From IMG/VR virus record IMGVR_UViG_3300023223_001476, positions 1 to 44,378 of that record: 44,378 nucleotides of DNA; one strand, given 5' to 3'. Below the pieces are notes generated by a model. That model was given only the letters and a program-made list of their open reading frames with translations, ran no database searches and had not been told where the DNA came from. Shown one piece after another: positions 1,066 through 20,510 of the stretch. Each line of letters opens with the position of its first letter. The stretch's first letter is position 1. The position numbers and the translations under genes are program-made. This DNA is from a virus.

Positions 1066-2448
1066 ATGTCAGCATTCTTAGATGAAAATACTCAATTTGT
1101 AGATGATGGAGGGAAGCCTCTTGCAGGCGGGAAAGCTTATTTCGGAGTTGTCGGGTCGGACCCTATTCTTTTCCCAATCCAGATATTCTCTGATAGAGCC
1201 TTGAAGATAGAGCTTAACAATCCTCAAACATTAGATGCGGATGGTCGAACTGAAAATAAAATTTGGATTTCCACGGTATATTCTCTTTTGGTTCAGGATG
1301 TGTTGGGCGTTCAGCATATACAACAATTAGACCAAGGAACTTTACTTTCATCAGAATTTATAACGCTTACTGTTACTGGAGGCGCAAACGATCTGATAGC
1401 CGATGGAGTATCGCCAATAGAATTACTCTCAGATAAAGGTATTTATGTTCTCCAAACCATAAATCCCAATAGTGGCCCAATGACATTGGAAGTTGGAATG
1501 GTGACAGCAAAAGATATAAAACTAAATCTGGATCAGGATATTCAGGAAATAAAAGTTAAAGCGGATCAGACAATGTTGCTTGCCTTTAATGAATCTCTTG
1601 ATATTTTCGAGTGGATTAATCCTAGTGATAAAATAATTTATCTGACAAGAGCAGTGGATGTTACAGCGGTTCCCACCACGCCTATATGGATAACTGACGG
1701 AAATTTTATTCATGTTGTAGGCGCAGATATCATAGTCTCTTTTGGCGACTCTCAACAAGCTGGAGCTATAAGAAAAATTATATGGGATGCAGGCTCAACC
1801 ATAACAGATAACGCGGCAATAATTGTTCCAGGTGGAGCTAATCTCATAACCGGAGCGGGTGATTCATGCGAAGTGATTGCCGATTCAATCAATCCTACTA
1901 TATCTCGAATCACTCAATATCAAAGAGGGGCTGTCGTTCCATTTGACGGCCAGGTTGAAATTCCTTGGACTTTTGTAACAGTTGATTTAAATAATGAAAC
2001 CGTACCAGTGACATTACTTTCAGGGTTGAGCAATATAAACTCAATAGACATTACCGTTAAAAATTGGAATCATGATATTGAGGAAGACCGTCTATCGCCT
2101 ATCTTTCAACTGGTAACGACTAGTACGATAACGGGAGGTTATGATTCAAGAATTACAAGTTACAAATTTGATCCTGAAGCCTTTATTGATGTAAACAACT
2201 CTTCAGGATTTAATATTGCGGACCAAGCTCAAGTTGACGGCGGGGATCAATTAGCTTTTGAGGTTTCACTAAAACATTTTGGGAATAATGTTTGGAATTG
2301 CACATCGATAGGACGAGAAAACAGTTTTAACTATTGGGGGAGTGGACAGATATCTCTCGGAGCGCCTTTGACAGGTCTCGTAATGGAAATGATCGGCAGT
2401 GGTGGAAAAGGCATTGATGGCGGGTCGGTAAATATGAGATATCGATAA
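1066..2448 (+). CDS. Tailspike-like protein with P22-type head-binding N-terminus
   Basis: Residues 1-100 look like the P22 tailspike head-binding domain: a start 'SAFLDENTQFVDDGGKPL', a 'GKAYFG' strand, and a 'TLDADGR...' turn followed by 'YSLLVQDVLGV'. In P22-like phages this domain docks the spike on the tail hub. The remaining ~360 residues are beta-rich, Asn/Ile-rich and without a motif I recognise, and the length is shorter than P22 gp9 (667 aa). There is no obvious catalytic triad, so a receptor-binding role is inferred from position. The start is the ATG directly after the upstream stop, with AGGAG 10 bases before it. Confidence 0.75.
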   Translation: MSAFLDENTQFVDDGGKPLAGGKAYFGVVGSDPILFPIQIFSDRALKIELNNPQTLDADGRTENKIWISTVYSLLVQDVLGVQHIQQLDQGTLLSSEFITLTVTGGANDLIADGVSPIELLSDKGIYVLQTINPNSGPMTLEVGMVTAKDIKLNLDQDIQEIKVKADQTMLLAFNESLDIFEWINPSDKIIYLTRAVDVTAVPTTPIWITDGNFIHVVGADIIVSFGDSQQAGAIRKIIWDAGSTITDNAAIIVPGGANLITGAGDSCEVIADSINPTISRITQYQRGAVVPFDGQVEIPWTFVTVDLNNETVPVTLLSGLSNINSIDITVKNWNHDIEEDRLSPIFQLVTTSTITGGYDSRITSYKFDPEAFIDVNNSSGFNIADQAQVDGGDQLAFEVSLKHFGNNVWNCTSIGRENSFNYWGSGQISLGAPLTGLVMEMIGSGGKGIDGGSVNMRYR

Positions 2449-2457
2449 AAAGTCAAT

Positions 2458-4692
2458 ATGCTAAACAAATTGACAAGAATTCAAGCTGGCGAATCTCTTC
2501 CATTCACGTTTGACCGTAGCGGTGCCTCCCTGAAAGACTGGACTTGCCAAATATTTGTCAAGCAGAAGCCTGATGATATTCGCGCCGTTGACAGGCAAAT
2601 CCTTTCTACAAATAATTTTAACTTTAAGGGGGTTCTAACAAGCGCGGAAACCCTAAATTTGGAAGACGGTGTTTGGCAATTAGTAGGGCTTTTGCAAAAT
2701 ATCAAGACTGATGAACAAGAAGAAATACCTATAAGATTTAGCGTCACAAAATCATTTAAAATTACCCCCAGTGTTTCCACTCCTATTTTTTCTCCGCCAG
2801 CCGGAACTTTTGAAAATACAGTTGTTGTCACTATAGCTTCGGCGACCCCAGAAGCGATCATCCATTTCACTACTGACGGCTCAGACCCGACAATTTTATC
2901 TGATATATTTAAAACTCCAATCATATTGACCCCATCAGGATCGCCGCATTCTCTAAAAGCGTTCGCCGTTAAGTCAGGTTTAATCGATAGCGCCATATCT
3001 TCCGCTATCTATAATGTTCAGGACAAGGTTGAATCCGTCACTTTCTTGCCCATTGCGGGAATTATTTCAGAAACTCAAACAATTACTCTTTCTACGCCCA
3101 CTTCCGGCGCAATCATTCATTTCACCGATAACGGTGATCCTGTCGATAAGAATTCTGAAATTTTTTTGGTTCCTTTTACGCTTCCGTTAGGGAATCAAAT
3201 AGTGAAAGCGTTTGCCGTTAAACCGAATTTTATTGATAGCGATAAAACTCAAGCAAATTATACCGTAGAGGATATGGTTGAACCCGTCACCTATTCGCCG
3301 CCAGAAGGAACAATTTTCGACATAGATACTATAGCTCTTTCGACAACCACTTCCGGCGCAACCATTCATTTCACAAAAAACGGTGATCCTGTCGATGATG
3401 AATCTGAAATTTTTGTGCTTCCTTTTACGCTTCCGTTAGGGAATCAGGTTGTTAAAGCGTTCGCGTTAAAAACAGGTTTTTTTGAAAGCGTTAAAAATGA
3501 AGCGAATTACAATGTTATTCAACAGACGGTCCAGCCTGTTACCTTTTCGCCTCCTGCCGGAACCATAAGAGAAACAGATTTGATAACTCTTTTGACAGGT
3601 ACATCAGGAGCGACTATTCGTTTCACCGACGATGGGAGTCCTCCCGATGGGAATTCTGATCCTTTTATTCTTCCTTTTACTTTACCTCTTGGAAATCAGA
3701 TAGTGAGAGCGTTTGCCGAGAAAGACGGATTTATACCTAGTGTCGAAACCCAGGCAAATTATGCCGTAGAGGATGTGGTGGCGCCAGTAACATTTTTGCC
3801 CGTAGATGAAAATATATTGGATGATACGCCAATATCCCTGGCAACAACTACATCAGGAGCCACCATCCGTTTCACAACAAACGGCGAAACTCCCGATGAG
3901 AATTCTCAAGAGTTTATACTTCCTTTTACGCTTACGGAAGGAGTCCGAACTGTAAAGGCAATTGGGCTTAAAGATAATTTCTTTACTAGCACAGAGACTC
4001 AAAAAACTTATACGGTTACGACGGCATTTTCCCCCTTGGATATTTCAAACATCGTTTTTTGGGTGGATGCAAATGATGAGAACAGTGTTGACGAATCCGT
4101 TGGTGGTGTTTCTGAGTGGAGAGATCAAAGCAGTAATAATAATCATATAATACAGGGAGTAAGTTCAAGACGACCTTCTTATAATGATTCAGTAACCCCG
4201 CATTTTATATTGTTTAACGGTACTACCGACTTAATGGGTCTTAATAGCGCATCCCAACGCGGTCAACCAAATACATTTTTTATGGTCGCTAGAGCCGTTG
4301 ATAATTCAGGGACACAAGTTATATTTGACAGTGCAGGCACCTCCAGAGCGCAAGTATTCTCTGATTCAGGCGGGGTTTGGACTATGGGCGCTGACGTGCC
4401 AGTAAGTACAGGAAAATCTTCAAATACAAACAAGAATATTTTAACGCCGATTTTCGATAAATTTAATAGTAGATTTTATGTCAATGGCGGCTCTTCTAAT
4501 ATATTTAATGTAGGAACTGATGTAACGTTTGGGTTTCTATTGGCAACGGCTACAGAAATCGAAAATTTTGCAAATTATGAATTCTACGATATTTTATTTT
4601 ACAGTAGACTATTGACGCTTCAAGAATTGAATGATTTGGGGGAATTTTTTGCCGATAAGCATTCCTTAACTTGGACCACGATCACAGTTTAA
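2458..4692 (+). CDS. Modular adhesin: BppU-like N-domain, five chitobiase/Fn3-like repeats, LamG-like C-domain
   Basis: Three parts are visible. Residues ~1-103 are a small beta domain clearly paralogous to the whole protein at 31339-31647; it resembles baseplate-upper-protein N-domains. Residues ~106-525 hold five repeats of ~83 residues with a shared pattern: 'PVTFSPPAGT', 'TSGATIHFT.DG', 'PFTLPLGNQ.VKAFA'. These resemble chitobiase C-terminal/Fn3-like carbohydrate-associated modules. Residues ~526-744 form a concanavalin/LamG-type domain with 'WRDQSSNNNH' and an end 'FFADKHSLTW', paralogous to 30304-31074. It is likely a surface-binding tail appendage. It lies 9 bases after the spike gene and is followed by a strong terminator. 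Confidence 0.8.
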   Translation: MLNKLTRIQAGESLPFTFDRSGASLKDWTCQIFVKQKPDDIRAVDRQILSTNNFNFKGVLTSAETLNLEDGVWQLVGLLQNIKTDEQEEIPIRFSVTKSFKITPSVSTPIFSPPAGTFENTVVVTIASATPEAIIHFTTDGSDPTILSDIFKTPIILTPSGSPHSLKAFAVKSGLIDSAISSAIYNVQDKVESVTFLPIAGIISETQTITLSTPTSGAIIHFTDNGDPVDKNSEIFLVPFTLPLGNQIVKAFAVKPNFIDSDKTQANYTVEDMVEPVTYSPPEGTIFDIDTIALSTTTSGATIHFTKNGDPVDDESEIFVLPFTLPLGNQVVKAFALKTGFFESVKNEANYNVIQQTVQPVTFSPPAGTIRETDLITLLTGTSGATIRFTDDGSPPDGNSDPFILPFTLPLGNQIVRAFAEKDGFIPSVETQANYAVEDVVAPVTFLPVDENILDDTPISLATTTSGATIRFTTNGETPDENSQEFILPFTLTEGVRTVKAIGLKDNFFTSTETQKTYTVTTAFSPLDISNIVFWVDANDENSVDESVGGVSEWRDQSSNNNHIIQGVSSRRPSYNDSVTPHFILFNGTTDLMGLNSASQRGQPNTFFMVARAVDNSGTQVIFDSAGTSRAQVFSDSGGVWTMGADVPVSTGKSSNTNKNILTPIFDKFNSRFYVNGGSSNIFNVGTDVTFGFLLATATEIENFANYEFYDILFYSRLLTLQELNDLGEFFADKHSLTWTTITV

Positions 4693-6224: not shown

Positions 6225-6298
6225 TGCGCCTGGTAGGATTTGAACCTACTGCCTATAGATTAGAAGTCTATCGCTCTATCCAGGTGAGCTACAGGCGC
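6225..6298 (-). tRNA. tRNA-Arg (anticodon UCU)
   Basis: Read leftward, a complete cloverleaf folds: acceptor GCGCCTG/CAGGCGC, D-stem GCTC/GAGC, anticodon stem ATAGA/TCTAT with loop CTTCTAA (anticodon UCU, codon AGA), and T-stem GTAGG/CCTAC with loop TTCAAAT. The discriminator is A and CCA is not encoded. Phage tRNA-Arg(UCU) commonly supports translation of AGA-rich phage genes in hosts that use it rarely; that role is inferred here. Confidence 0.95.
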
Positions 6299-6299
6299 G

Positions 6300-7079
6300 T
6301 TATACATCATATAGATGTTCGTGGATCAATATCCCATAAAAACCTACGCCAATGCGCATAAAGCCTTTTTGTTCCGTTCCCGCCAGAGCCATTTTATTGC
6401 CGAAATTTTTTCTTTCATCGTCAGGTATATTGCAAGCTGTCATAAGTTCGGTAATCGACATTTTGCGCCGAGACTCCCATATTTGTTTATATGCCTTATT
6501 TAAATTTCCGCCAATTTTAAAAGGGTTTGCAGGAGGGTCATTTACTTCAGGCTCATTTGCTTCAGATTTATTTATTTTTTTGATTTTTGTTTTTTGTTCC
6601 TTTAAGTTTTTTGGATGCAATTTATATAAATGTTTAAATTGAATCAGACCATAAACGGCTCGTTGGGGATTACCATTAATATCAAAATCAATTCTGAAAT
6701 AACAATTCTTCTTACGAGAAGCGCCCGAAAGGTTTACTCCCAAAATTCGAGCAGAATCGCCCTTAAAATTCATTATATCGGCAATCTCGCTAATCGAATA
6801 AGGTCGTTTTTCACAAGTAAATAACCTGTTTGTTACATCACAAAGCATGCCGCCTGTTTGGTAGGGGTTATGCATTCCTTCCAGGGAATTGTTATTATCT
6901 GGCTCAACACTCTCGTTTTTTTCTTCAGTTGGTTTATCCAAAGAACCGAATAGAATTAGAGTTTTGGCGTTTTCGTAAGTGGCAATTTCAACCGCCAATT
7001 CTCTTAATTTTATTTCATATTCCAATCTTACGCTTTGCAACTCCCCTATTTTTTGATCGATAGCTTCAAATGATTCCAT
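6300..7079 (-). CDS. Protein with N-terminal coiled coil and duplicated winged-helix-like domain
   Basis: This is a 259-residue protein. Residues 1-50 form a coiled coil. Two related ~65-residue domains follow (~76-145 and ~190-255), each starting 'GG.L' and running through a helix, 'YSISEIADIMNF' or 'MSITELMTACNI', then a turn and a beta hairpin ending 'VYGLI' or 'FYGILI'. That is a winged-helix-like layout. The linker is Lys/Pro/Glu-rich. A DNA- or RNA-binding regulator is the best guess. The ATG has AGGAGA ahead of it, and the leader carries three copies of the structured RNA element (7109-7388). The gene ends just before the tRNA. Confidence 0.75.
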   Translation of the reverse strand: MESFEAIDQKIGELQSVRLEYEIKLRELAVEIATYENAKTLILFGSLDKPTEEKNESVEPDNNNSLEGMHNPYQTGGMLCDVTNRLFTCEKRPYSISEIADIMNFKGDSARILGVNLSGASRKKNCYFRIDFDINGNPQRAVYGLIQFKHLYKLHPKNLKEQKTKIKKINKSEANEPEVNDPPANPFKIGGNLNKAYKQIWESRRKMSITELMTACNIPDDERKNFGNKMALAGTEQKGFMRIGVGFYGILIHEHLYDV

Positions 7080-7108: not shown

Positions 7109-7198
7109 AACAGCCCCCAATCGGTATAGCCCTGAGGGGGAAAGGCCGATTAGGTTTTAGATATGGACCCGTCCTGGGCGAAGCCCACAAATAGCTGC
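7109..7198 (-). ncRNA. Structured RNA element, copy A (three-way junction, AUU / UCUAAAAC)
   Basis: Read leftward: P1 CAGC/GCUG; joining AUU; P2 UGUGG/CCAUA with an inner GCCC/GGGU; invariant UCUAAAACC; P3 AAUCGG/CCGAUU; then P1'. A CCCCC inside the P3 loop can pair with the GGGGG just 3' of P3, which would make a pseudoknot or an alternative terminator-like stem before a U-rich run. It ends about 20 bases before the ribosome site of the gene starting at 7079, as expected of a cis-regulatory leader. Confidence 0.6.
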
Positions 7199-7207
7199 AA
7201 AAAAATA

Positions 7208-7288
7208 GCGGACCCTAGAATAATGTCTCTTAGCATTATTAAAGTTTTAGACTCTCTGAGGCTCCAGTCCTCAAAGAGAATGGCCCTT
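7208..7288 (-). ncRNA. Structured RNA element, copy B (three-way junction, AUU / UCUAAAAC)
   Basis: Read leftward: P1 GGGCC/GGUCC; AUU; a 10-bp P2 starting CUCUUUGAGG; UCUAAAAC; P3 AAUAAUG/CAUUAUU with loop CUAAGAGA; P1'. This is the cleanest copy, with all three helices fully paired apart from G-U wobbles. The helix sequences differ completely from the other copies while the junction strands are identical. Confidence 0.65.
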
Positions 7289-7326
7289 GTTATAACAACC
7301 CCCACTCGAAGTAAAGGAATTTCCAG

Positions 7327-7388
7327 AAAACCGACGAATGGGTTTTAGACGGAACCGATCCTACCAAAGGGGATTCCGAATGGTTGCA
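7327..7388 (-). ncRNA. Structured RNA element, copy C (three-way junction, AUU / UCUAAAAC)
   Basis: Read leftward: GCAACC then AUU; P2 CGGAAUC/GGUUCCG; UCUAAAACC; P3 AAAACC/GGUUUU with loop CAUUCGUC (using the end of the conserved strand). CAACC could close with GGUUG near 7300, giving a longer P1 spacing than in the other copies. It shares GCAACCAUU with copy D. Confidence 0.55.
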
Positions 7389-7396
7389 CACTGATT

Positions 7397-7651
7397 TTAT
7401 TTTTGGGGTCTGTATATAAAACCATTTTTGTCCAGGTTGATACTGTCAAAAAGACCGGACTCAAATAATTTGTTCATAAACAAAGTTGCGACCTCAAGCT
7501 GCATAACCATGATTAAGCAAGCCTCTGAAGGGAGATCGTCTTTTGGGATATGGGTTTTTATCTCTTCTATTTTATCGTTTAATCTTTTGATTTCATCCCC
7601 AAGATTTTTTAACGTAGAAGTTATATCAAGGGGTGTTTTGGGGTCTGGCAT
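7397..7651 (-). CDS. Hypothetical helical protein, last gene of the envelope cluster
   Basis: The product is 84 residues from the ATG with GGAGA nine bases upstream (MPDPKTPLDI); an in-frame ATG 48 bases upstream gives 100 residues but has a poor ribosome site. A coiled-coil segment ('LKNLGDEIKRLNDKIEEI') is followed by a region compatible with helix packing ('ACLIMVMQLEVATLFMNKLF'). No signal peptide is seen. It lies 59 bases downstream of the lipoprotein gene. Function is unknown. Confidence 0.65.
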   Translation of the reverse strand: MPDPKTPLDITSTLKNLGDEIKRLNDKIEEIKTHIPKDDLPSEACLIMVMQLEVATLFMNKLFESGLFDSINLDKNGFIYRPQK

Positions 7652-7710
7652 TGTTTTTATCTCCATAATAAAATGATTTATTTTTTGATCATTGGTCATG
7701 TTAATGTTTT

Positions 7711-8154
7711 TTAAAACCTCACTATTTCAGTTGCAATCGGAGTGTATTGATTTTGATCCTGCAATTGAAAACTGTTGTCTGGCGTGAATTGATTGCAGGG
7801 ATTATAATTCTGTTGATAGCCAACAGGCATGTATTGATTTTGCGAATTATTAAACGGATTATTAATTGATGTTTTTGTTATTACCTGAGTTGCTATCAAA
7901 CCTGCGCCTAAAACAGTATCGAAAACTTTGCTCCAAACCTGAGTATTCTTTTGAGAGGTTACCTGGCTTGCCGTTTGATCGTGAACATAGTTAGCGCAAA
8001 GCCTATGATCCTGGTGGTTTCCGTTTGGATCATTCTTTTCACATTGCGAAAAAAAGTATGAATCATTTGCCGCTCTCATTTGTGGCGAATAGCCTGCGCA
8101 ACCTGTAAACAAAAATGAAAAAATCAACGCTATAAAAATGGAATTCCTTTGCAT
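7711..8154 (-). CDS. Predicted lipoprotein
   Basis: This is a 147-residue product with a classical lipoprotein signal: MQRN, a hydrophobic core, and lipobox FTGC with Cys19. The mature part is Asn/Gln-rich ('NPFNNSQNQYMPVGYQQNYN') with one hydrophobic stretch near the middle. I chose the ATG at 8154 because GGAGGG lies 9 bases before it; the longer frame from 8172 would bury the signal. It is part of the leftward envelope cluster but is preceded by a terminator at 8187-8228, so it may have its own promoter or depend on readthrough. Confidence 0.8.
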   Translation of the reverse strand: MQRNSIFIALIFSFLFTGCAGYSPQMRAANDSYFFSQCEKNDPNGNHQDHRLCANYVHDQTASQVTSQKNTQVWSKVFDTVLGAGLIATQVITKTSINNPFNNSQNQYMPVGYQQNYNPCNQFTPDNSFQLQDQNQYTPIATEIVRF

Positions 8155-8186
8155 TTGTATACCCTCCAGCATTGGTTAAAAAAAAA

Positions 8187-8228
8187 GGGTCTCCATAAAC
8201 CGTGAAACTTTAGGCTGATGGAAACCCT
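8187..8228 (-). terminator. Rho-independent terminator inside the envelope cluster
   Basis: Read leftward, GGGT-t-TCCAT pairs with ATGGA-g-ACCC around a ~21-base loop, followed by a run of nine or more U. It lies between the tiny membrane gene at 8237 and the lipoprotein gene. Confidence 0.75.
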
Positions 8229-8236
8229 CATTATTT

Positions 8237-8344
8237 TTAGGGCAATAAGCTACCTGTGCCCCAAATGAATGCGATCCCGGAACCAGTTATCACGCCAGCT
8301 AAGAGATAAAACATATTCCGCATTCGCCTAGTTGCTGCGTTCAT
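8237..8344 (-). CDS. Tiny membrane peptide (35 aa)
   Basis: MNAATRRMRNMFYLLAGVIT leads into GSGIAFIWGTGSLLP. A basic N-terminus followed by one hydrophobic helix suggests an inner-membrane peptide with N-in orientation. The ribosome site GGGAGG lies six bases before the ATG. Upstream, at about 8355-8400, a composite hairpin (CAGGC/GCCTG outside TGATTC/GAATCA) occupies the gap to the next gene. Confidence 0.65.
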   Translation of the reverse strand: MNAATRRMRNMFYLLAGVITGSGIAFIWGTGSLLP

Positions 8345-8415
8345 TAAACCTCCCTTCTAAAACGTTAGCAGGCTGATTCTTTCATAGAATCATTAATGGC
8401 CTGAGTGAAAATTCA

Positions 8416-8835
8416 CTATCTTGTTCTTGGTCGTAAATCTCTTTGTTCGCCGACCAAAAATATAGATTGCGCAAGATTATAATAATCATTGGAAAGCGCA
8501 TCGACGGTAGATTTATTTAAAGTAAGAGTAGACAAACCGCGAGTAGGCAGATCAGCCGCAATTATTGCCATAACAATTTCGTGTATGTTTGCTTTTTCTG
8601 CATAAGTAACTTCATCCGCAACGCCTGGGCCACTACCCTTTTTAACTTCCTTAACAAAAAGACCGCCTTTTGATGTGCCGAATCTCCTTACCGCAAACCC
8701 GACAGTAGAGCCTGGTTTAAGCAGCGCTGCCGAAACTTCAGGAACGGGATTGAAATATTTCATATAAGGAATTCCTACATAACTTGAAATCGATAACATA
8801 AATACCGCTAATAAAATTGCTGTTCTCTTTTTCAT
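8416..8835 (-). CDS. Envelope-anchored or secreted hypothetical protein
   Basis: This is a 139-residue protein. The N-terminus, MKKRTAILLAVFMLSISSYV, is a signal peptide or uncleaved anchor without a clear AXA site. The rest is soluble, with a 'KPGSTVGFAVRRFG' segment, a Gly/Lys-rich loop and a helical C-terminal half. GGAGGAAAG precedes the ATG. It is placed within the beta-barrel operon, so a periplasmic partner of the barrels is plausible but unproven. Confidence 0.75.
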   Translation of the reverse strand: MKKRTAILLAVFMLSISSYVGIPYMKYFNPVPEVSAALLKPGSTVGFAVRRFGTSKGGLFVKEVKKGSGPGVADEVTYAEKANIHEIVMAIIAADLPTRGLSTLTLNKSTVDALSNDYYNLAQSIFLVGEQRDLRPRTR

Positions 8836-8864
8836 ACAGCTTTCCTCCGGTAAAAAATTAAAAT

Positions 8865-8926
8865 GGGCATCCTCAGAATTGAGGTCTCAGTAAACCACCT
8901 GGCGCAATAACCCTTGCGCTAATCCC
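8865..8926 (-). ncRNA. Possible structured intergenic RNA (three hairpin helices)
   Basis: Read leftward, GGGAU can pair with AUgCCC, enclosing perfect hairpins GCGCAA/UUGCGC and CCUCA/UGAGG joined by CAGGUGGUUUACUGAGA. It overlaps the end of the tiny gene at 8919 and precedes the gene at 8835. The junction does not contain UCUAAAAC, so I keep it apart from the five-copy family. Confidence 0.35.
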
Positions 8927-9008
8927 TGGTCGAAAGTGAAAATAAATTTAAGATTAGGGCGGCTGCGCAACAGCCGATCATTATCAATAAGCAAGTTGTT
9001 TGATCCAT
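8919..9008 (-). CDS. Tiny membrane peptide (29 aa)
   Basis: MDQTTCLLIMIGCCAAALIL leads into NLFSLSTRD, giving a single hydrophobic helix with three Cys. The ATG lies 3 bases after the stop of the barrel gene at 9012, with GGAGA inside that gene's end as ribosome site. Close packing and hydrophobicity are the only evidence. Confidence 0.5.
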   Translation of the reverse strand: MDQTTCLLIMIGCCAAALILNLFSLSTRD

Positions 9009-9011
9009 AAG

Positions 9012-9734
9012 CTAAAATCTCCAGCCAAAATTGAAAGTAAAAGATAAAATGTCAACGTCTGGAGCGGGATTATAGCGGTAAGCATCTACGATTGTGTCAT
9101 AATGAAGACCACCCCTAGAACCTCTTACGCATGACGCATTAGGGTCTACGCAATAGTTGATTTTACTTATTTTCACTTCTCCATCCCCACTAGACCGCAT
9201 GACGTTTGGACTCCATTCAATCTCTGGCCTTATGAAAAAATTCTCCGTAAGGTCAAAGTTCAAACCCATTCCTAAAAGAAAAGTGAAAGCATCTTTATCT
9301 GTAAAATAATCTATATCCTCTCCCTTCAGGTTGGAATAAAGCATTCCCGTTTTAAGAAATATTTTAATTTTCTCATTGATGGGAACTATGCCTAAAAATG
9401 AAAGCGAAATTCCTTTTGATTTAAAGTTAAATTGCTCTCTATAAACATAAGAGTCTTCAAACAATTCTTCCCCAAAAAGCACACTCCCGAAACGATGAAG
9501 ACCGATTTCAATAGCAATGTTTTTGTGAAACTGATAACCTCCAAAAATTTTTCCCGATACTTGTTTGTTATCGATTTCAAATTTATCGAAATCTTTGAAG
9601 TCTGCATTGCCGTTAAATATAGAGGCGCCTAATCCGCCTCCCATATAAAAATGGTCTTTAAAAGAGCCGCTATTAGCATAGACCGTGATAGGTGAAAAAA
9701 TAAAAATCGCTAAAATTATGATGCTTTTTTTCAT
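9012..9734 (-). CDS. Outer-membrane beta-barrel, small type (copy A)
   Basis: This is a 240-residue protein. Signal peptide residues 1-20 end in VYA-N. About eight alternating amphipathic strands follow, beginning 'FYMGGGLGASIF' and 'GKIFGGYQFHKNIAIEIGLH', in the style of OmpA-type 8-stranded barrels. It ends in GWRF; a C-terminal Phe is the usual recognition signal for the BAM machinery. It is paralogous to the protein at 11482-12240 (shared 'GK.F.GY.FHK..A.E...HRFG' pattern and WRF end). Ribosome site GAGGGG. It follows the large barrel at 9759 by 24 bases, as in the paralogous pair. It could alter phage adsorption or the host surface. Confidence 0.88.
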   Translation of the reverse strand: MKKSIIILAIFIFSPITVYANSGSFKDHFYMGGGLGASIFNGNADFKDFDKFEIDNKQVSGKIFGGYQFHKNIAIEIGLHRFGSVLFGEELFEDSYVYREQFNFKSKGISLSFLGIVPINEKIKIFLKTGMLYSNLKGEDIDYFTDKDAFTFLLGMGLNFDLTENFFIRPEIEWSPNVMRSSGDGEVKISKINYCVDPNASCVRGSRGGLHYDTIVDAYRYNPAPDVDILSFTFNFGWRF

Positions 9735-9758
9735 AATATTTTCCCCTCAATTAAAATA

Positions 9759-11048
9759 TTAAAATGAAAACGTTGTCCTTAAAAACGGACCATGCGAAAT
9801 GAAGTCTTCTGATTCATGGTCTATAGAACCGTCCAGATTTCTTTCGGCACATTTGCCATAAGAAGCTTGCTCAGTGTCAGCAGATTTACTGCTTCCGCAG
9901 GTTGTCCTAACGCCATAATGCATATCATATCGATAACCCGCGAGAAAACTTAAAGTGGTACTGTCGGAAAGCTCAATGTCGTAACGCAGGCCAGCTTCCA
10001 GTTCCACGTTATGGATGGTTTCGTCTTTGTCCTTGACCTTATAACCGCCCTGTTCAATTTCCAGAACAATAGGTTCGCCTTCAATATATTCTGTTGCATC
10101 TATTTGAGCGGTTACCACGTTGCCACTACTATCTGTTACCTCATCCGTCTGTTCGCGAGACCATCCATTTGCAGCTATTTGTCTGCGGGTCGATGTGCTT
10201 TCATAATCATCCGTTATATTTTTTTTGCCGAAAAGAATAGCCCAATTTACGCCTCCGACAAATGTAATATTTTTTGAAAGTGGCACTCCAACAGATAACC
10301 CTATACGCGGCCCTAAGGCTTCTATATCCATATCCAGTTGTCGGCTATTACTATGTGAAGGACCTTCAAATCTTTGTTGATCAGTTGCATCAACAACATT
10401 GTCAGGATTACGACAATTTCTTACAGTTGGCTCATGTCCATCCCAATCCCCATATGCGCAATCTCTTGCGCCAGTTGTTTTTACATTCAGTGATTGATTA
10501 TATTTAGCGTAACGAACCCCAGCGCTCAAACGAATGGAAATTAATTCAACTTTAAATAGCGCTCCAGCTTCCAAATCGATATGCTCAAAATCAAATTGAC
10601 CTTTTGCAAGCCCTTCAACATGTTCCGTTCCATAAGCAAAAGGGGTAAACATATTTTCATTTTGGTCAGAACCGGCATAACTATTCGATCCCGTACTGAG
10701 TGGAAAAGTATTTTTGAATTTATCTTCTAACCTATAATCAGTAGAAAAACTCGTATAATAAGCGCCCAAATCAAAACCCCTCCATTTGAAGCCAGCGCCA
10801 GTTTTGAAATAATGAGTATCCTTCAAATGAAGGTAAACAGGGGCAGCAGTAATAGGAGTGACAACAGCTTGTGTGGTTGTTTGTTCGGGATACTCAATCC
10901 CAGGATAAGTTTCAGCGACAGGCGTTTCGTTTTTTTGTAAAGCTCCGCGACTTTCCCAACTGCCAAAAAATGAAAAATCACTTTCAGCTTCAGCAAAAAG
11001 ATTTTGTGGGAACATTAAAATAATTGCGAACAATAATATTTTTTTCAT
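9759..11048 (-). CDS. Outer-membrane beta-barrel, large type (copy A)
   Basis: This is a 429-residue protein. The signal peptide MKKILLFAIILMFPQNLFA is cleaved at FA-E. The mature protein has long polar loops rich in Thr, Asp and Glu between amphipathic strands such as 'YFKTGAGFKWRGFDLGAYYT' and 'TLSFLAGYRYDMHYG'. It ends 'HGPFLRTTFSF' with terminal Phe. The C-terminal 'HGPFLRTT' also ends the protein at 12260-13249, so the two are paralogues; this copy has ~100 more residues, mostly in loops and in an N-terminal Pro/Thr-rich insert. A pore or surface protein is likely; substrate unknown. Confidence 0.85.
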   Translation of the reverse strand: MKKILLFAIILMFPQNLFAEAESDFSFFGSWESRGALQKNETPVAETYPGIEYPEQTTTQAVVTPITAAPVYLHLKDTHYFKTGAGFKWRGFDLGAYYTSFSTDYRLEDKFKNTFPLSTGSNSYAGSDQNENMFTPFAYGTEHVEGLAKGQFDFEHIDLEAGALFKVELISIRLSAGVRYAKYNQSLNVKTTGARDCAYGDWDGHEPTVRNCRNPDNVVDATDQQRFEGPSHSNSRQLDMDIEALGPRIGLSVGVPLSKNITFVGGVNWAILFGKKNITDDYESTSTRRQIAANGWSREQTDEVTDSSGNVVTAQIDATEYIEGEPIVLEIEQGGYKVKDKDETIHNVELEAGLRYDIELSDSTTLSFLAGYRYDMHYGVRTTCGSSKSADTEQASYGKCAERNLDGSIDHESEDFISHGPFLRTTFSF

Positions 11049-11078
11049 GATGTACCTTTCTTTAGGTTAAAAAATCAG

Positions 11079-11480
11079 TTAGGGGGTAACGCGTGATTTA
11101 AAATGAGTTATTTGTGGGACCCAACCCCCTACTGTGCGATCTCTCCTTAATTGGACTAAACATTCAAATTTTTTTACTTTCATAATTGGATCATTAATAT
11201 CATTAAAATCAATAAGGCCCGTAATAAAAAAACCTTTGTTGTTACCGCGACGGTCAAAGAATGATCTTCTAGAATTATGAAGCCTTATGCATAAATGATC
11301 ATCCCTGATATTTACTGAATCAATCCCTATAGTTTTGGCAAAGCGTGTTTTACACATTTGGATGCTATGAGCCAACGGCAATCCGCTTCTGCTAAACTGC
11401 TGCTCCCAACTCCATTGAGCGTGAACAGATTGCGCTGAAAACATAATAAATATGATTGCTACAAAAGTTATTTTTTTCAA
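11079..11480 (-). CDS. Secreted (periplasmic) hypothetical protein
   Basis: This is a 133-residue protein starting at TTG, with GGAGA nine bases upstream. Signal peptide MKKITFVAIIFIMFSAQSVH is cleaved at HA-Q. The mature protein has three Cys and is basic, with segments 'WSWEQQFSRSGLPLAHSI' and 'KVKKFECLVQLRRD'. It sits between the two large+small barrel pairs. No family is recognised; it may be a chaperone or ligand for the barrels. Confidence 0.75.
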   Translation of the reverse strand: MKKITFVAIIFIMFSAQSVHAQWSWEQQFSRSGLPLAHSIQMCKTRFAKTIGIDSVNIRDDHLCIRLHNSRRSFFDRRGNNKGFFITGLIDFNDINDPIMKVKKFECLVQLRRDRTVGGWVPQITHFKSRVTP

Positions 11481-11481
11481 G

Positions 11482-12240
11482 TTAAAATCTCCAAATAAGG
11501 CTTGCGGTAAAGGAAACTAAATTAACGTCAGTGTCAAAGCCGTTATATGTAAAATCGCCAAATTCTCTATTAAGACGTTTTAATTTTCTTGTCAATTTAG
11601 CTTCGTTACTTTGAATAATGTCAAATGCGCATTCAGCTTCTACTCTCAAAATTAAATTTTCTGAAAGTGTCATTTCAGCGCCCGTACCAAGTAATAATGA
11701 GAACCCTTCATCATTAAATAGATCAACTTTATCAAATGGCAGCCCACCCATAATTAAAAAAGGGTGATTTTTAAGCTTGAAAACGCTGTATAACAGCCCG
11801 ACCTTAGTAAAGACTTCAATGTTTTTTGAGGCGCGTAGATAACCCAGGATAGAAAGGCTTGACCCGTAAGATTGAAACTTAAATTGATGATCAATAATTT
11901 CTATGGGCGGTAAGCCAGCAGCGATTTCTAAACTGCGAAGTTTATTGTGTTTAACTGCCCCAAATCTATGGAAAGAAGCTTCTAACGCAAAAAACTTATG
12001 GAAGCGATAGCCTGCAAAAACCTTTCCCGCTAAATCCTTTCCGTCAAAAGTATATTGATGCCAATAAAGCTCACCGCCCCAACCTGAGGAAGGATTAGTT
12101 CTACCATCGAAATGAGTAAACCCTATCCCCGCTCCGACATAAAAATAATCATATTTATCTTCAGTGGTATCAGCGGGATCGGCAAAAGCGGGAATTGTAA
12201 AAGCAAATATAATCATAAAAACAAAAAAGATTTTTTTCAT
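11482..12240 (-). CDS. Outer-membrane beta-barrel, small type (copy B)
   Basis: This is a 252-residue paralogue of the protein at 9012-9734. The signal peptide ends FA-D at about residue 20. Strands such as 'YFYVGAGIGFTHF', 'GKVFAGYRFHKFFALEASFH' and 'SLLLGTGAEMTLSENLIL' follow, and it ends LIWRF with terminal Phe. An OmpA-like 8-stranded barrel without a peptidoglycan-binding domain is the best fit. It follows the large barrel at 12260 by 19 bases, so the large+small order is repeated. Confidence 0.88.
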   Translation of the reverse strand: MKKIFFVFMIIFAFTIPAFADPADTTEDKYDYFYVGAGIGFTHFDGRTNPSSGWGGELYWHQYTFDGKDLAGKVFAGYRFHKFFALEASFHRFGAVKHNKLRSLEIAAGLPPIEIIDHQFKFQSYGSSLSILGYLRASKNIEVFTKVGLLYSVFKLKNHPFLIMGGLPFDKVDLFNDEGFSLLLGTGAEMTLSENLILRVEAECAFDIIQSNEAKLTRKLKRLNREFGDFTYNGFDTDVNLVSFTASLIWRF

Positions 12241-12259
12241 TTTATTCTCGTTCCTTAAA

Positions 12260-13249
12260 TCAGAAGTTTAAGGTCGTTCTTAAAAAGGGACCATGCATCA
12301 AAACGTTCTCTCTTTCTTCCCCATATTTAAGCCTGGCTCTTACTCTATCGTATGAATGGGTATAGGACGCGGTAAATAACTCTCCATAATAACCGTCAAA
12401 TCGATAGCCCCCGATGGTTTCCAGGGTTATTGAATCCGATATTTTGTGGGTAAATTTTATACCGCCTTCCATATCTAATGAAGTTGAAATGCGGGTATCC
12501 TTAAACTCTCGATCATTTCGATAATATTGGACTCGTATTCTGCCGTCCGACAGATGATTGGTTGTTAAAAAGGCATGAAGAAAATTTGGTTTAGAGATCA
12601 GAAGCGCTCCATTTACTGCGCCAATGAATTTCAAATCATAATTTTCTATTGGCAGTGGAACTTCTATTGAAACCCCAAACCTTGGCCCCGTAGCCGAATT
12701 TTTCAGGTCTATGAATCTATGGATATCAAAATTCCAAAGCTCACACCTTCTTGCTGAGCAATCATTCTTTCTAAAATTATCGAAGCGCATTTTATGAGTG
12801 GTATGGCGAACCCCTCCCATTAAACGCAAATCCATCCGTTGTAATTTAAATGTATAACCAAGTTCAAAATCAAAAGTCTTAATGCCTAGAGTTGCCTTTG
12901 CATAACCCAAAGAAATAGGACGGATTTTATAATCTCCGTAACCAGGAGCATGAATCCCAATAGGTATAGTATTTGCCATCGATCTATTATCAGATTGTTT
13001 TACATTCATGATATGCGTGTAGTGAAAACCTATATCAAAACTCTCCATGAATTTCATTCCTGCGCCGACTCTTAAAGAAGCCCTATCTTTAAAATGCATA
13101 AAAATAGGTTTTTCATTGATATCTTCCGCTAACGCTATTTTAGTGTCATGCATGAAAGCGCGTTTTGTTTCACCTGTAATGAAAAAGGTTTGCGCGAAAA
13201 CTACTTGCGGTATCAACAAACATAAAATCAAAATAATAAATTTATTCAT
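12260..13249 (-). CDS. Outer-membrane beta-barrel, large type (copy B)
   Basis: This is a 329-residue protein from the ATG at 13249, which has GAGGG upstream and places a clean signal peptide first (MNKFIILILCLLIPQVVFA-Q). The longer frame from 13303 has no such logic and overlaps the next gene. Amphipathic strands alternate with basic loops; it ends 'HGPFLRTTLNF' with terminal Phe, like the paralogue at 9759-11048. Loops are shorter and more basic than in that copy, suggesting divergence of the surface-exposed parts. Confidence 0.85.
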   Translation of the reverse strand: MNKFIILILCLLIPQVVFAQTFFITGETKRAFMHDTKIALAEDINEKPIFMHFKDRASLRVGAGMKFMESFDIGFHYTHIMNVKQSDNRSMANTIPIGIHAPGYGDYKIRPISLGYAKATLGIKTFDFELGYTFKLQRMDLRLMGGVRHTTHKMRFDNFRKNDCSARRCELWNFDIHRFIDLKNSATGPRFGVSIEVPLPIENYDLKFIGAVNGALLISKPNFLHAFLTTNHLSDGRIRVQYYRNDREFKDTRISTSLDMEGGIKFTHKISDSITLETIGGYRFDGYYGELFTASYTHSYDRVRARLKYGEERENVLMHGPFLRTTLNF

Positions 13250-13268
13250 AGTAATAATTCCCTCAGGG

Positions 13269-13481
13269 TTATGAATTAATATTTTTACTTTTAACTGCAA
13301 CAAAACAATCGGGCCGATTCGTAAATATAGCTATTGGCGGCCCTCCCTCTTGATTTTCCCACCACTTGTCGGCAGCTTCCAAAACTTTTGTCGTTAGGGA
13401 TCGCGGACATTTTTTTTCGCCGTCTCCAAACTCCCCGCAGGTTTTTTCTTGGCAAAATGTCATATCTCTATAACACAACAT
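13269..13481 (-). CDS. Small Cys-rich protein, first gene of the envelope operon
   Basis: This is a 70-residue product with five Cys: 'MLCYRDMTFCQEKTCGEF' holds three in a pattern that may bind a metal, with others at 'KKCPRSLT' and 'RPDCFVAV'. A perfect AGGAGG precedes the ATG. Small phage proteins of this build (early CxxxxxxC...C cluster followed by an amphipathic helix and a 'GPPIAIF' strand) are common, but their role is unknown to me. It is the first gene after the RNA leader at 13538-13683. Confidence 0.8.
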   Translation of the reverse strand: MLCYRDMTFCQEKTCGEFGDGEKKCPRSLTTKVLEAADKWWENQEGGPPIAIFTNRPDCFVAVKSKNINS

Positions 13482-13537
13482 GGCTTAACCTCCTATATAA
13501 AATCCCCCCACAACCCCCGATGAGGGCGAAAAAGCAG

Positions 13538-13603
13538 TAAAAACCCCCACAGGGTTTTAGACGCGAGAACGACCAGGACTCGCGAATGGTTGCTGGAGGT
13601 TTT
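13538..13603 (-). ncRNA. Structured RNA element, copy D (AUU / UCUAAAAC)
   Basis: Read leftward: AAAACCUCC can pair with GGGGGUUUU as P1; then GCAACCAUU; P2 CGCGAG/CUCGCG; UCUAAAACCC. The same GGGGGUUUUU can instead pair with CCC through a UGUG loop to form a terminator-like hairpin with a U-tract. The two pairings exclude each other, as in transcription-attenuating leaders. It is the second of two copies in the envelope operon leader. Confidence 0.55.
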
Positions 13604-13608
13604 ATTAA

Positions 13609-13683
13609 GGGACCCCTGACCAATCCTAACCAGGTTTTAGACGCGCTGTAGCTCACAACTGATTGTGTTGCGCGAATGATCCC
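13609..13683 (-). ncRNA. Structured RNA element, copy E (three-way junction, AUU / UCUAAAAC)
   Basis: Read leftward: P1 GGGAUC/GGUCCC; AUU; P2 CGCGC/GCGCG with an inner CACAA/UUGUG hairpin; UCUAAAA; P3 CCUG/CAGG; P1'. The 5' strand of P1 begins about six bases after the -10 box of the promoter at 13689-13716, so the transcript should start at or within a few bases of the element. Confidence 0.65.
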
Positions 13684-13688
13684 ATCTA

Positions 13689-13716
13689 TTTATACTATTT
13701 TTTTAAGAACTCTCAA
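13689..13716 (-). promoter_or_regulatory. Leftward promoter of the envelope operon
   Basis: Read leftward: -35 TTGAGA (13716-13711), 16-bp spacer, -10 TATAAA (13694-13689). Further upstream a second possible -35 TTGACT lies in the dyad at 13765-13780. The region 13717-13811 holds only A+T-rich DNA and that dyad. Confidence 0.6.
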
Positions 13717-19766: not shown

Positions 19767-20510
19767 ATGAAATGGTTTCATCATGATTCGGATATCAGGC
19801 ACAAAGAATCGATTGCCAAATTGAAAGAGGAATTCGGCTTTGAAGGGATTGGGCGATATTGGACAATTTGCGAAATCGTTGCCGAACAAATGGATTATAC
19901 GGACAAATGTTTTGCCGAATTCCCAGAGTCAAAATGGTTGTCTGAATTGGTTATTAGACGCCCATTATTCCGCCGGTATCTTCTTGTTATCGGGCAGCTA
20001 TTTGATAACCATGTGACAGTTACCGGCTCGTTAATCCGTATTGAAATGCCTAACTTGTTGGGCAAGAAAGACAATCATTCGCGCAACTTGCAAGCAAAAA
20101 TAAAAAAACTTGCAAGTAAAGAAAAAGATAAAGAAAAAGATAAAGAAAAAGATAAAAGACTTCCAGCAGATTCAGATAAATCTGAATCTCCTGGACAAGG
20201 GAATTTTGATTATAGTCTATATTTTGAAAAAGCCTGGAACGCCTTTCCAAGGAAATTAGGCAGAAAAGCTTCCTTCCGTAGATACAAGGCCTCCATTAAA
20301 AATATCGCCGATCATGGCATATTAATGTCCGCTATGGCAAATTACTTGCGCTATGCGGAAGATATGCAATACGACTACCAACACGGAGCAACCTGGTTTA
20401 ATAATTGGCAAGATCATATTGAACCGCATGTAATTAAAAATGCGAAAGACGGGATGGAGGCGTGGGCCGCAGAACGTAAAGCAAAAAAAACAAAAGGGGA
20501 ATCGCTATGA
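19767..20510 (+). CDS. Replication initiator-like protein (Lin1244/Lin1753-type N-domain)
   Basis: This is a 247-residue protein. The N-terminal ~90 residues show the pattern of phage initiator domains ('WFHHDSDIRH', 'FGFEGIGRYWTICEIVAEQM'). A linker with repeated KEKD units (nucleotide repeat GATAAAGAAAAA at ~20126-20155) leads to a C-terminal domain ('AWNAFPRKLGRKASFRRYKA', 'YAEDMQYDYQHGATWFNNW') typical of phage replication proteins that bind the origin. It overlaps the loader gene by 4 bases. The same order, initiator then loader, is seen in lambdoid O/P pairs. Confidence 0.75.
   Translation: MKWFHHDSDIRHKESIAKLKEEFGFEGIGRYWTICEIVAEQMDYTDKCFAEFPESKWLSELVIRRPLFRRYLLVIGQLFDNHVTVTGSLIRIEMPNLLGKKDNHSRNLQAKIKKLASKEKDKEKDKEKDKRLPADSDKSESPGQGNFDYSLYFEKAWNAFPRKLGRKASFRRYKASIKNIADHGILMSAMANYLRYAEDMQYDYQHGATWFNNWQDHIEPHVIKNAKDGMEAWAAERKAKKTKGESL

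Follow-up and report, generated by a model that had tools for sequence, protein, structure and literature searches.

A candidate new family of three-way-junction RNA, arrayed beside envelope moron genes of P22-like temperate phages

Five tandem copies of a three-way junction in one phage

The window, the whole 44,378-nt stretch of DNA that was analysed (positions 1 to 44,378 of virus record IMGVR_UViG_3300023223_001476), contains five copies of a small three-way-junction RNA, all on the minus strand, in two tandem arrays: D-E at 13510-13683 and A-C at 7110-7387. Rfam 15 has no entry for the element. Our best explanation, that it represents a family of cis-acting small RNA elements not described before, is tentative and as a whole stops a little short of being probable. 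When the copies were isolated by cutting at the P1 ends and folded without constraint, all five gave one common MFE fold, P1-AUU-P2-UCUAAAA-P3-P1', with no linker between P3 and P1'. Units are 75-94 nt long and are arrayed one to three per site. The string TCTAAAAC on the minus strand marks the five window copies (13634-13641, 13554-13561, 7342-7349, 7244-7251 and 7154-7161). R1 and R3 in the list are covariance models described below.

13609-13683, minus strand: copy E, MFE fold, 63.7 bits with R1 and 42.0 bits with R3; P1 13683-13678/13614-13609, AUU 13677-13675, P2 13674-13670/13646-13642, UCUAAAA 13641-13635, P3 from C13634 to G13615
13510-13593, minus strand: copy D, MFE fold, 82.3 bits with R1; P1 13593-13588/13515-13510, AUU 13587-13585, P2 13584-13579/13567-13562, UCUAAAA 13561-13555, P3 from C13554 to G13516
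7295-7387, minus strand: copy C, MFE fold, 80.3 bits with R1; P1 7387-7382/7300-7295, AUU 7381-7379, UCUAAAA 7349-7343, P3 from C7342 to G7301
7210-7286, minus strand: copy B, MFE fold, 56.0 bits with R1; P1 7286-7282/7214-7210, AUU 7281-7279, UCUAAAA 7251-7245, P3 from C7244 to G7215 with an internal loop
7110-7198, minus strand: copy A, MFE fold, 77.0 bits with R1; P1 7198-7193/7115-7110, AUU 7192-7190, UCUAAAA 7161-7155, P3 from C7154 to G7116

The original prediction of two tandem junctions at 13538-13683, among five copies in all, was confirmed by the strand positions and the MFE folds. Its boundary was not: the element reaches 13510, and position 13538 lies inside P3 of copy D. The helix implied for P1 of copy D was likewise wrong, the true P1 being GCAACC/GGUUGU. 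The strand that had been taken for it is probably the AAAACCUCC spacer, which in the fold of the full leader pairs as AAAACCUCC/GGGGG-AUUUU and lengthens P1 of copy D. The strand UCUAAAAC, proposed as a junction strand, is present, with its last C as the first base of P3, paired to an invariant G; the single strand is UCUAAAA, and the junction strands therefore count 3, 7 and 0 nt.

The ensemble probability of the core was 0.56-0.81 for copies A-E folded alone and dropped when 20-nt flanks were included (E, 0.30; sister-phage copies F, 0.07 and H, 0.04). These folding energies are those of isolated RNA, and units may fold singly during transcription. Internal loops make P3 the weakest of the three helices in copies B and G.

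Strand lengths of this kind are consistent with Lescoute and Westhof family C, three-way junctions in which two helices reportedly abut without a linker, the hammerhead and the purine and TPP aptamers being examples. The likeness, one zero-length linker and otherwise unequal strands, is a placement from strand lengths only, and none of those examples has AUU and UCUAAAA strands.

Conservation, covariation and the selected strand

Alignment A8 comprised the eight cores with loops trimmed, a narrow base in that the copies come from three related phages. As the original prediction had stated for copies D and E, AUU and UCUAAAAC were invariant, here in all eight; together with GGG they make up 14 positions identical in every copy. 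Covariation of the helices, also part of the original prediction, was clear. Both sides vary at 15 of the 19 helix pairs, standard pairs fill 91.4% of pair cells (69% in shuffles) and the covariation score was 0.793, against 0.327 +/- 0.044 in shuffles; none of 500 shuffles equalled any observed pairing or covariation value. When partners were slid by 1-3 bases, pairing was only 34-50%. The P2 and P3 loops vary freely in length and sequence, with no loop sequence common to all copies; a CsrA-like GGA in the P2 loop was considered and occurs in only about half of them.

Two scans addressed how unusual the arrangement is. A motif-plus-helix scan scored copies A-E at 12.6-15.8, with a top score of 10.3 in shuffled sequence and 9.8 at any other locus (1.84 Mb). 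A sequence-blind scan for neighbouring junction pairs with 3/7/0 strands agreeing at 9 or more of 10 bases was run on 41 loci: the window, 37 terminase-found loci of relatives, and a sister phage divided into three pieces. Its only returns were three pairs from the window and a single pair from the sister phage, each agreeing at 10 of 10 bases; no tandem junctions were found in shuffled sequence or in 236 further loci.

Pair cells with G-U numbered 21 and those with A-C two. A structure in DNA would show no such bias, so that, on the evidence of the alignment, these counts show selection to act on the minus-strand RNA. This bears on a reading of the arrays as attC-like recombination sites that shuffle moron genes at the DNA level. 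Like integron attC sites, the arrays combine conserved structure with variable sequence and lie directly after stop codons, and moron genes differ between the collinear sister phages. Nevertheless, attC is one long hairpin with an R box, whereas the phage element is a three-way junction with no R box, no core GTTRRRY/RYYYAAC was seen on inspection of the copies, and tandem sites occur without genes between them. Given the selection of one RNA strand as well, we find this reading scarcely credible.

The identity of the invariant bases similarly leaves little room for a self-cleaving ribozyme that separates moron genes on the mRNA, to which we assign only a slim chance. A three-way junction with 14 invariant positions, placed between genes in a phage, would suit one. 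Most nucleolytic ribozymes use an unpaired G in catalysis, but no G is among the ten invariant unpaired bases, each of which is A, U or C. The hammerhead, which is cleaved between its stems III and I, has CUGAUGA and GAA strands, in contrast to the AUU and UCUAAAA strands of the phage element; neither the hammerhead sequence nor its strand lengths occur here, and no Rfam ribozyme matched.

Catalogue searches and copies in sister phages

The original prediction had named an existing Rfam match, or homologues with unpaired P2 or P3, as its refutation. For the eight copies, no score from the 4227 families of Rfam 15 came up to the gathering cut-off of the family concerned, and with lax filters the best E-values were 0.13 or weaker, to implausible families. 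The copies thus share with Rfam families small size, structure, conserved single strands and covarying helices, and match none of them. The homologues, for their part, keep P1, P2 and P3 paired.

These homologues were found with R1, a covariance model built from the five window copies only, a search that had been proposed with the original prediction and that recovered three copies in two sister phages. Applied to viral contigs from the pattern scan, R1 detected tandem copies F (39.4 bits) and G (38.3 bits) in IMGVR_UViG_3300023223_001537 (L143). As F had been missed by the DNA pattern and was still scored by R1, it provides independent confirmation. A coat-protein scan led to IMGVR_UViG_3300023222_000297 and its single copy H (36.8 bits with R1). 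All three adopt the same MFE fold as the window copies, which brings the total to eight of eight. The three phages are P22-like, temperate and collinear, with coat proteins 71-83% and portal proteins 66-72% identical, and the sisters are metagenomic. A second model, R3, was made from trimmed cores; it gave at least 31.5 bits for the eight copies, which were its training set, and at most 17.1 bits for background matches.

Elsewhere the searches were negative. R1 found no match in 48 terminase-reached genomes or records (47 virus records and one MAG) or, with few candidates scored per genome and without a positive control, in 41 genomes of the MAG's order; nothing was found in 399 genomes of its phylum, searched with the same two limits. 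Among 369 genomes of its class, again with few candidates scored per genome and without a positive control, one match of 26.8 bits was rejected, having strands GUU/UCGAAA and no P3. Other relatives carrying the Erf annealing protein had no copies, and blastn of the arrays against phage and plasmid collections gave no meaningful match. A first loose DNA pattern produced eight matches, all attributable to chance; the last one produced at least 119 stretches and served as a negative control, only the two L143 copies passing the covariance model among the matches listed.

Arrays lie next to exchangeable envelope genes

Genes for Erf, an integrase, a repressor and a terminase, together with P22-like genes, identify the window as a temperate phage. 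The D-E array lies between the repressor gene and a moron operon on the minus strand, as follows.

7397-13481 (about 6 kb), minus strand: moron operon, from Pfam and ORFs
13269-13481, minus strand: 70-aa Cys-rich ORF, first gene of the envelope operon, with SD AGGAGG
12260-13303 and 9759-11048, minus strand: Legionella_OMP-like barrels, from Pfam
11482-12240 and 9012-9734, minus strand: OmpA-like barrels, from Pfam
7711-8172, minus strand: lipoprotein, from Pfam and ORFs
6300-7079, minus strand: 259-aa ORF after the A-C array, from the ORF list

At least four outer-membrane barrel genes, of two types with each present twice, suggest lysogenic conversion of the envelope. The D-E array was thus correctly described as leading an envelope operon. 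The 70-aa ORF matched neither Pfam nor NCBIfam, and the 259-aa ORF matched no family at its curated cut-off. A tRNA-Arg (UCU) gene at 6225-6298 (minus strand) lies just downstream of the latter. Mimicry of its anticodon region through the shared UCUAA was considered and dropped, ARAGORN finding no tRNA in the sister phages. One of these, L277, has a weak Rfam tRNA match (7666-7727, minus strand, 31.6 bits) near its integrase gene that ARAGORN does not call and that is possibly an attachment site.

The description of the element as a leader held for D-E only, since A-C and F-G are intergenic and H is placed after its operon's last gene. The array C-B-A begins about 10 nt beyond the stop codon of 7397-7699, and the array F-G about 12 nt beyond one. 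From the last P1' to the next AUG there are 28 nt in D-E (to the 70-aa ORF), 30 nt in C-B-A (to 6300-7079) and 28 nt in F-G (to a small lipoprotein gene); every array with a gene downstream, three in all, thus shows a spacing of 28-30 nt. Copy H begins about 28 nt after a stop codon and has no clear ORF downstream. Most moron genes of the sister phages are unrelated or distant, while head genes are collinear. As the moron genes differ and the RNA persists, the RNA is tied to the type of operon and not to one product.

A proposed cis-acting element, probably bound by a protein

The function that we favour, though with some reserve and not quite as probable, is that of a cis-acting element of the prophage envelope moron operon that probably binds a protein. 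P1 and P3 abut without a linker and so probably stack end to end, with P2 branching off and with AUU and UCUAAAA lining the branch point. Where single strands are invariant and the helices around them are free to vary, the pattern usually marks a surface that some partner recognises. These strands would form the docking surface for a putative trans-acting factor, most likely a phage or host RNA-binding protein, and arrangement in tandem would raise occupancy or cooperativity. The array would then probably set the translation or stability of the next part of the prophage envelope-gene mRNA, a role made probable by the position of the last unit, 28-30 nt before the AUG and just outside the expected ribosome footprint.

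The sensing of a ligand or protein, put forward in the original prediction, is on this evidence an inference. Folding models of the leaders gave mixed results. With junctions formed, modelled SD accessibility rose from 0.12 to 0.35 for A-C and from 0.11 to 0.40 for F-G, with no gain for D-E; this modest change, inconsistent between leaders, is weak model-based evidence for a translational role. No expression platform common to the leaders was found in these models, nor any excess of terminators, and a reading of the copies as terminators was dropped for lack of a consistent U-tract after them. The E-D spacer sequence AACCUCC (13595-13601, minus strand) complements GGAGGUU (13487-13493), the SD region of the following gene, as well as G-rich stretches within and beyond copy D, which could be a switch particular to the D-E leader.

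One alternative is a ligand-binding riboswitch with a three-way-junction aptamer. Compact junctions occur in several aptamers with strand lengths like the 0, 3 and 7 nt found here, and tandem aptamers are known. However, the genes downstream differ and are non-homologous, and one copy has none. A metabolite riboswitch is disfavoured because the leaders share neither a terminator nor an SD-blocking platform, because no one gene follows them all, and because the ten invariant unpaired bases are restricted to A, U and C. We regard this reading as improbable.

The strongest rival to the protein-binding reading is transcription antitermination, in which the nascent array, like lambda nut or HK022 put, would load factors on RNA polymerase or modify it, allowing read-through of terminators or untranslated gaps in the moron operon. 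The evidence includes the following feature.

13689-13716, minus strand: promoter-like TTGAGA (13716-13711), 16 nt and TATAAA (13694-13689), from resemblance to the consensus only

This sequence, a promoter in the original prediction, was found there, 5 nt separating it from P1 of copy E downstream. Such matches occur in this A+T-rich stretch at the rate expected by chance (27 found, 25.6 expected), so that the sequence is a plausible candidate promoter. With it, D-E would resemble nut and put RNAs as a phage RNA placed early in a long operon (about 6 kb) and one that combines a single strand with hairpins; the remaining arrays occupy untranslated gaps between genes, and UCUAAAA beside a hairpin resembles the boxA-then-boxB layout. 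Against this, the boxA core GCUCUU is absent at this place in all copies, the overall fold is different, up to three tandem copies per site, some between genes, would be unusual, copy H stands at the end of its operon, and no antiterminator protein gene was identified. We consider antitermination unlikely, albeit less so than the riboswitch.

Type III toxin-antitoxin RNAs (ToxI, TenpI and CptI) also consist of tandem structured repeats upstream of a gene. Their repeats are near-identical, whereas the helices of the phage element differ fully between copies; Pfam and NCBIfam revealed no ToxN/AbiQ-like family in the proteins downstream of the arrays, and Rfam no type III match.

A different kind of partner is raised by the 9-nt GUCUAAAAC, which follows the hairpin directly in seven of eight copies. 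The same order, a hairpin and then GUCUAAAAC, closes a published Cas13d repeat at its 3' end, the repeat being printed as AACTACACCCGTGCAAAAATGCAGGGGTCTAAAAC (PMC8869480). In viral genomes, moreover, a predicted promoter often precedes solitary repeat units (PMC10651486). RNA anti-CRISPRs copy both the sequence and the structure of one particular CRISPR repeat. The copies might accordingly be trans-acting decoys that titrate an RNA-binding protein, perhaps as a Racr against a type VI system; the presence of several copies per phage and the lack of a gene downstream of H would fit. But the stem, P2, is free to vary in sequence, unlike a mimic of one repeat, and is closed into a three-way junction whose P1, P3 and GGG are conserved although absent from the Cas13 repeat. 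No convincing defence-related family was found near the arrays. The chance of a decoy seems to us slimmer still than that of a ribozyme. Separately, the sister phage L277 encodes at 2143-2616 (minus strand) a 157-aa moron protein whose RNxFAH motif is of the kind typical for HEPN domains; it matched nothing in Pfam or NCBIfam.

A bolder extension of the protein-binding reading, which we think doubtful, is that the array module between envelope-modifying genes of temperate phages is an undescribed class of RNA through which a dedicated phage or host protein reads a modular code for lysogenic-conversion genes, whichever is plugged in; taken furthest, the module would serve as a decoy for a defence protein of Cas13/HEPN type. 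RNA-level control that keeps prophage moron genes on without harm to the host is poorly understood. The retention of this module through extensive compensatory change, while neighbouring genes are swapped, suggests a device of general use in controlling genes of this kind. A small module with an exact consensus, it is testable in vitro, and a protein partner would represent a new RNA-binding specificity.

Other repeats in the window

Two further repeats were observed on the plus strand. Four tandem copies, partial to full, of a unit of about 249 nt (83 codons) occupy 2956-3941 within ORF 2458-4692, whose match to a virion protein is weak. At 20117-20156, exact tandem 12-nt units of TAAAGAAAAAGA lie within a coding region.
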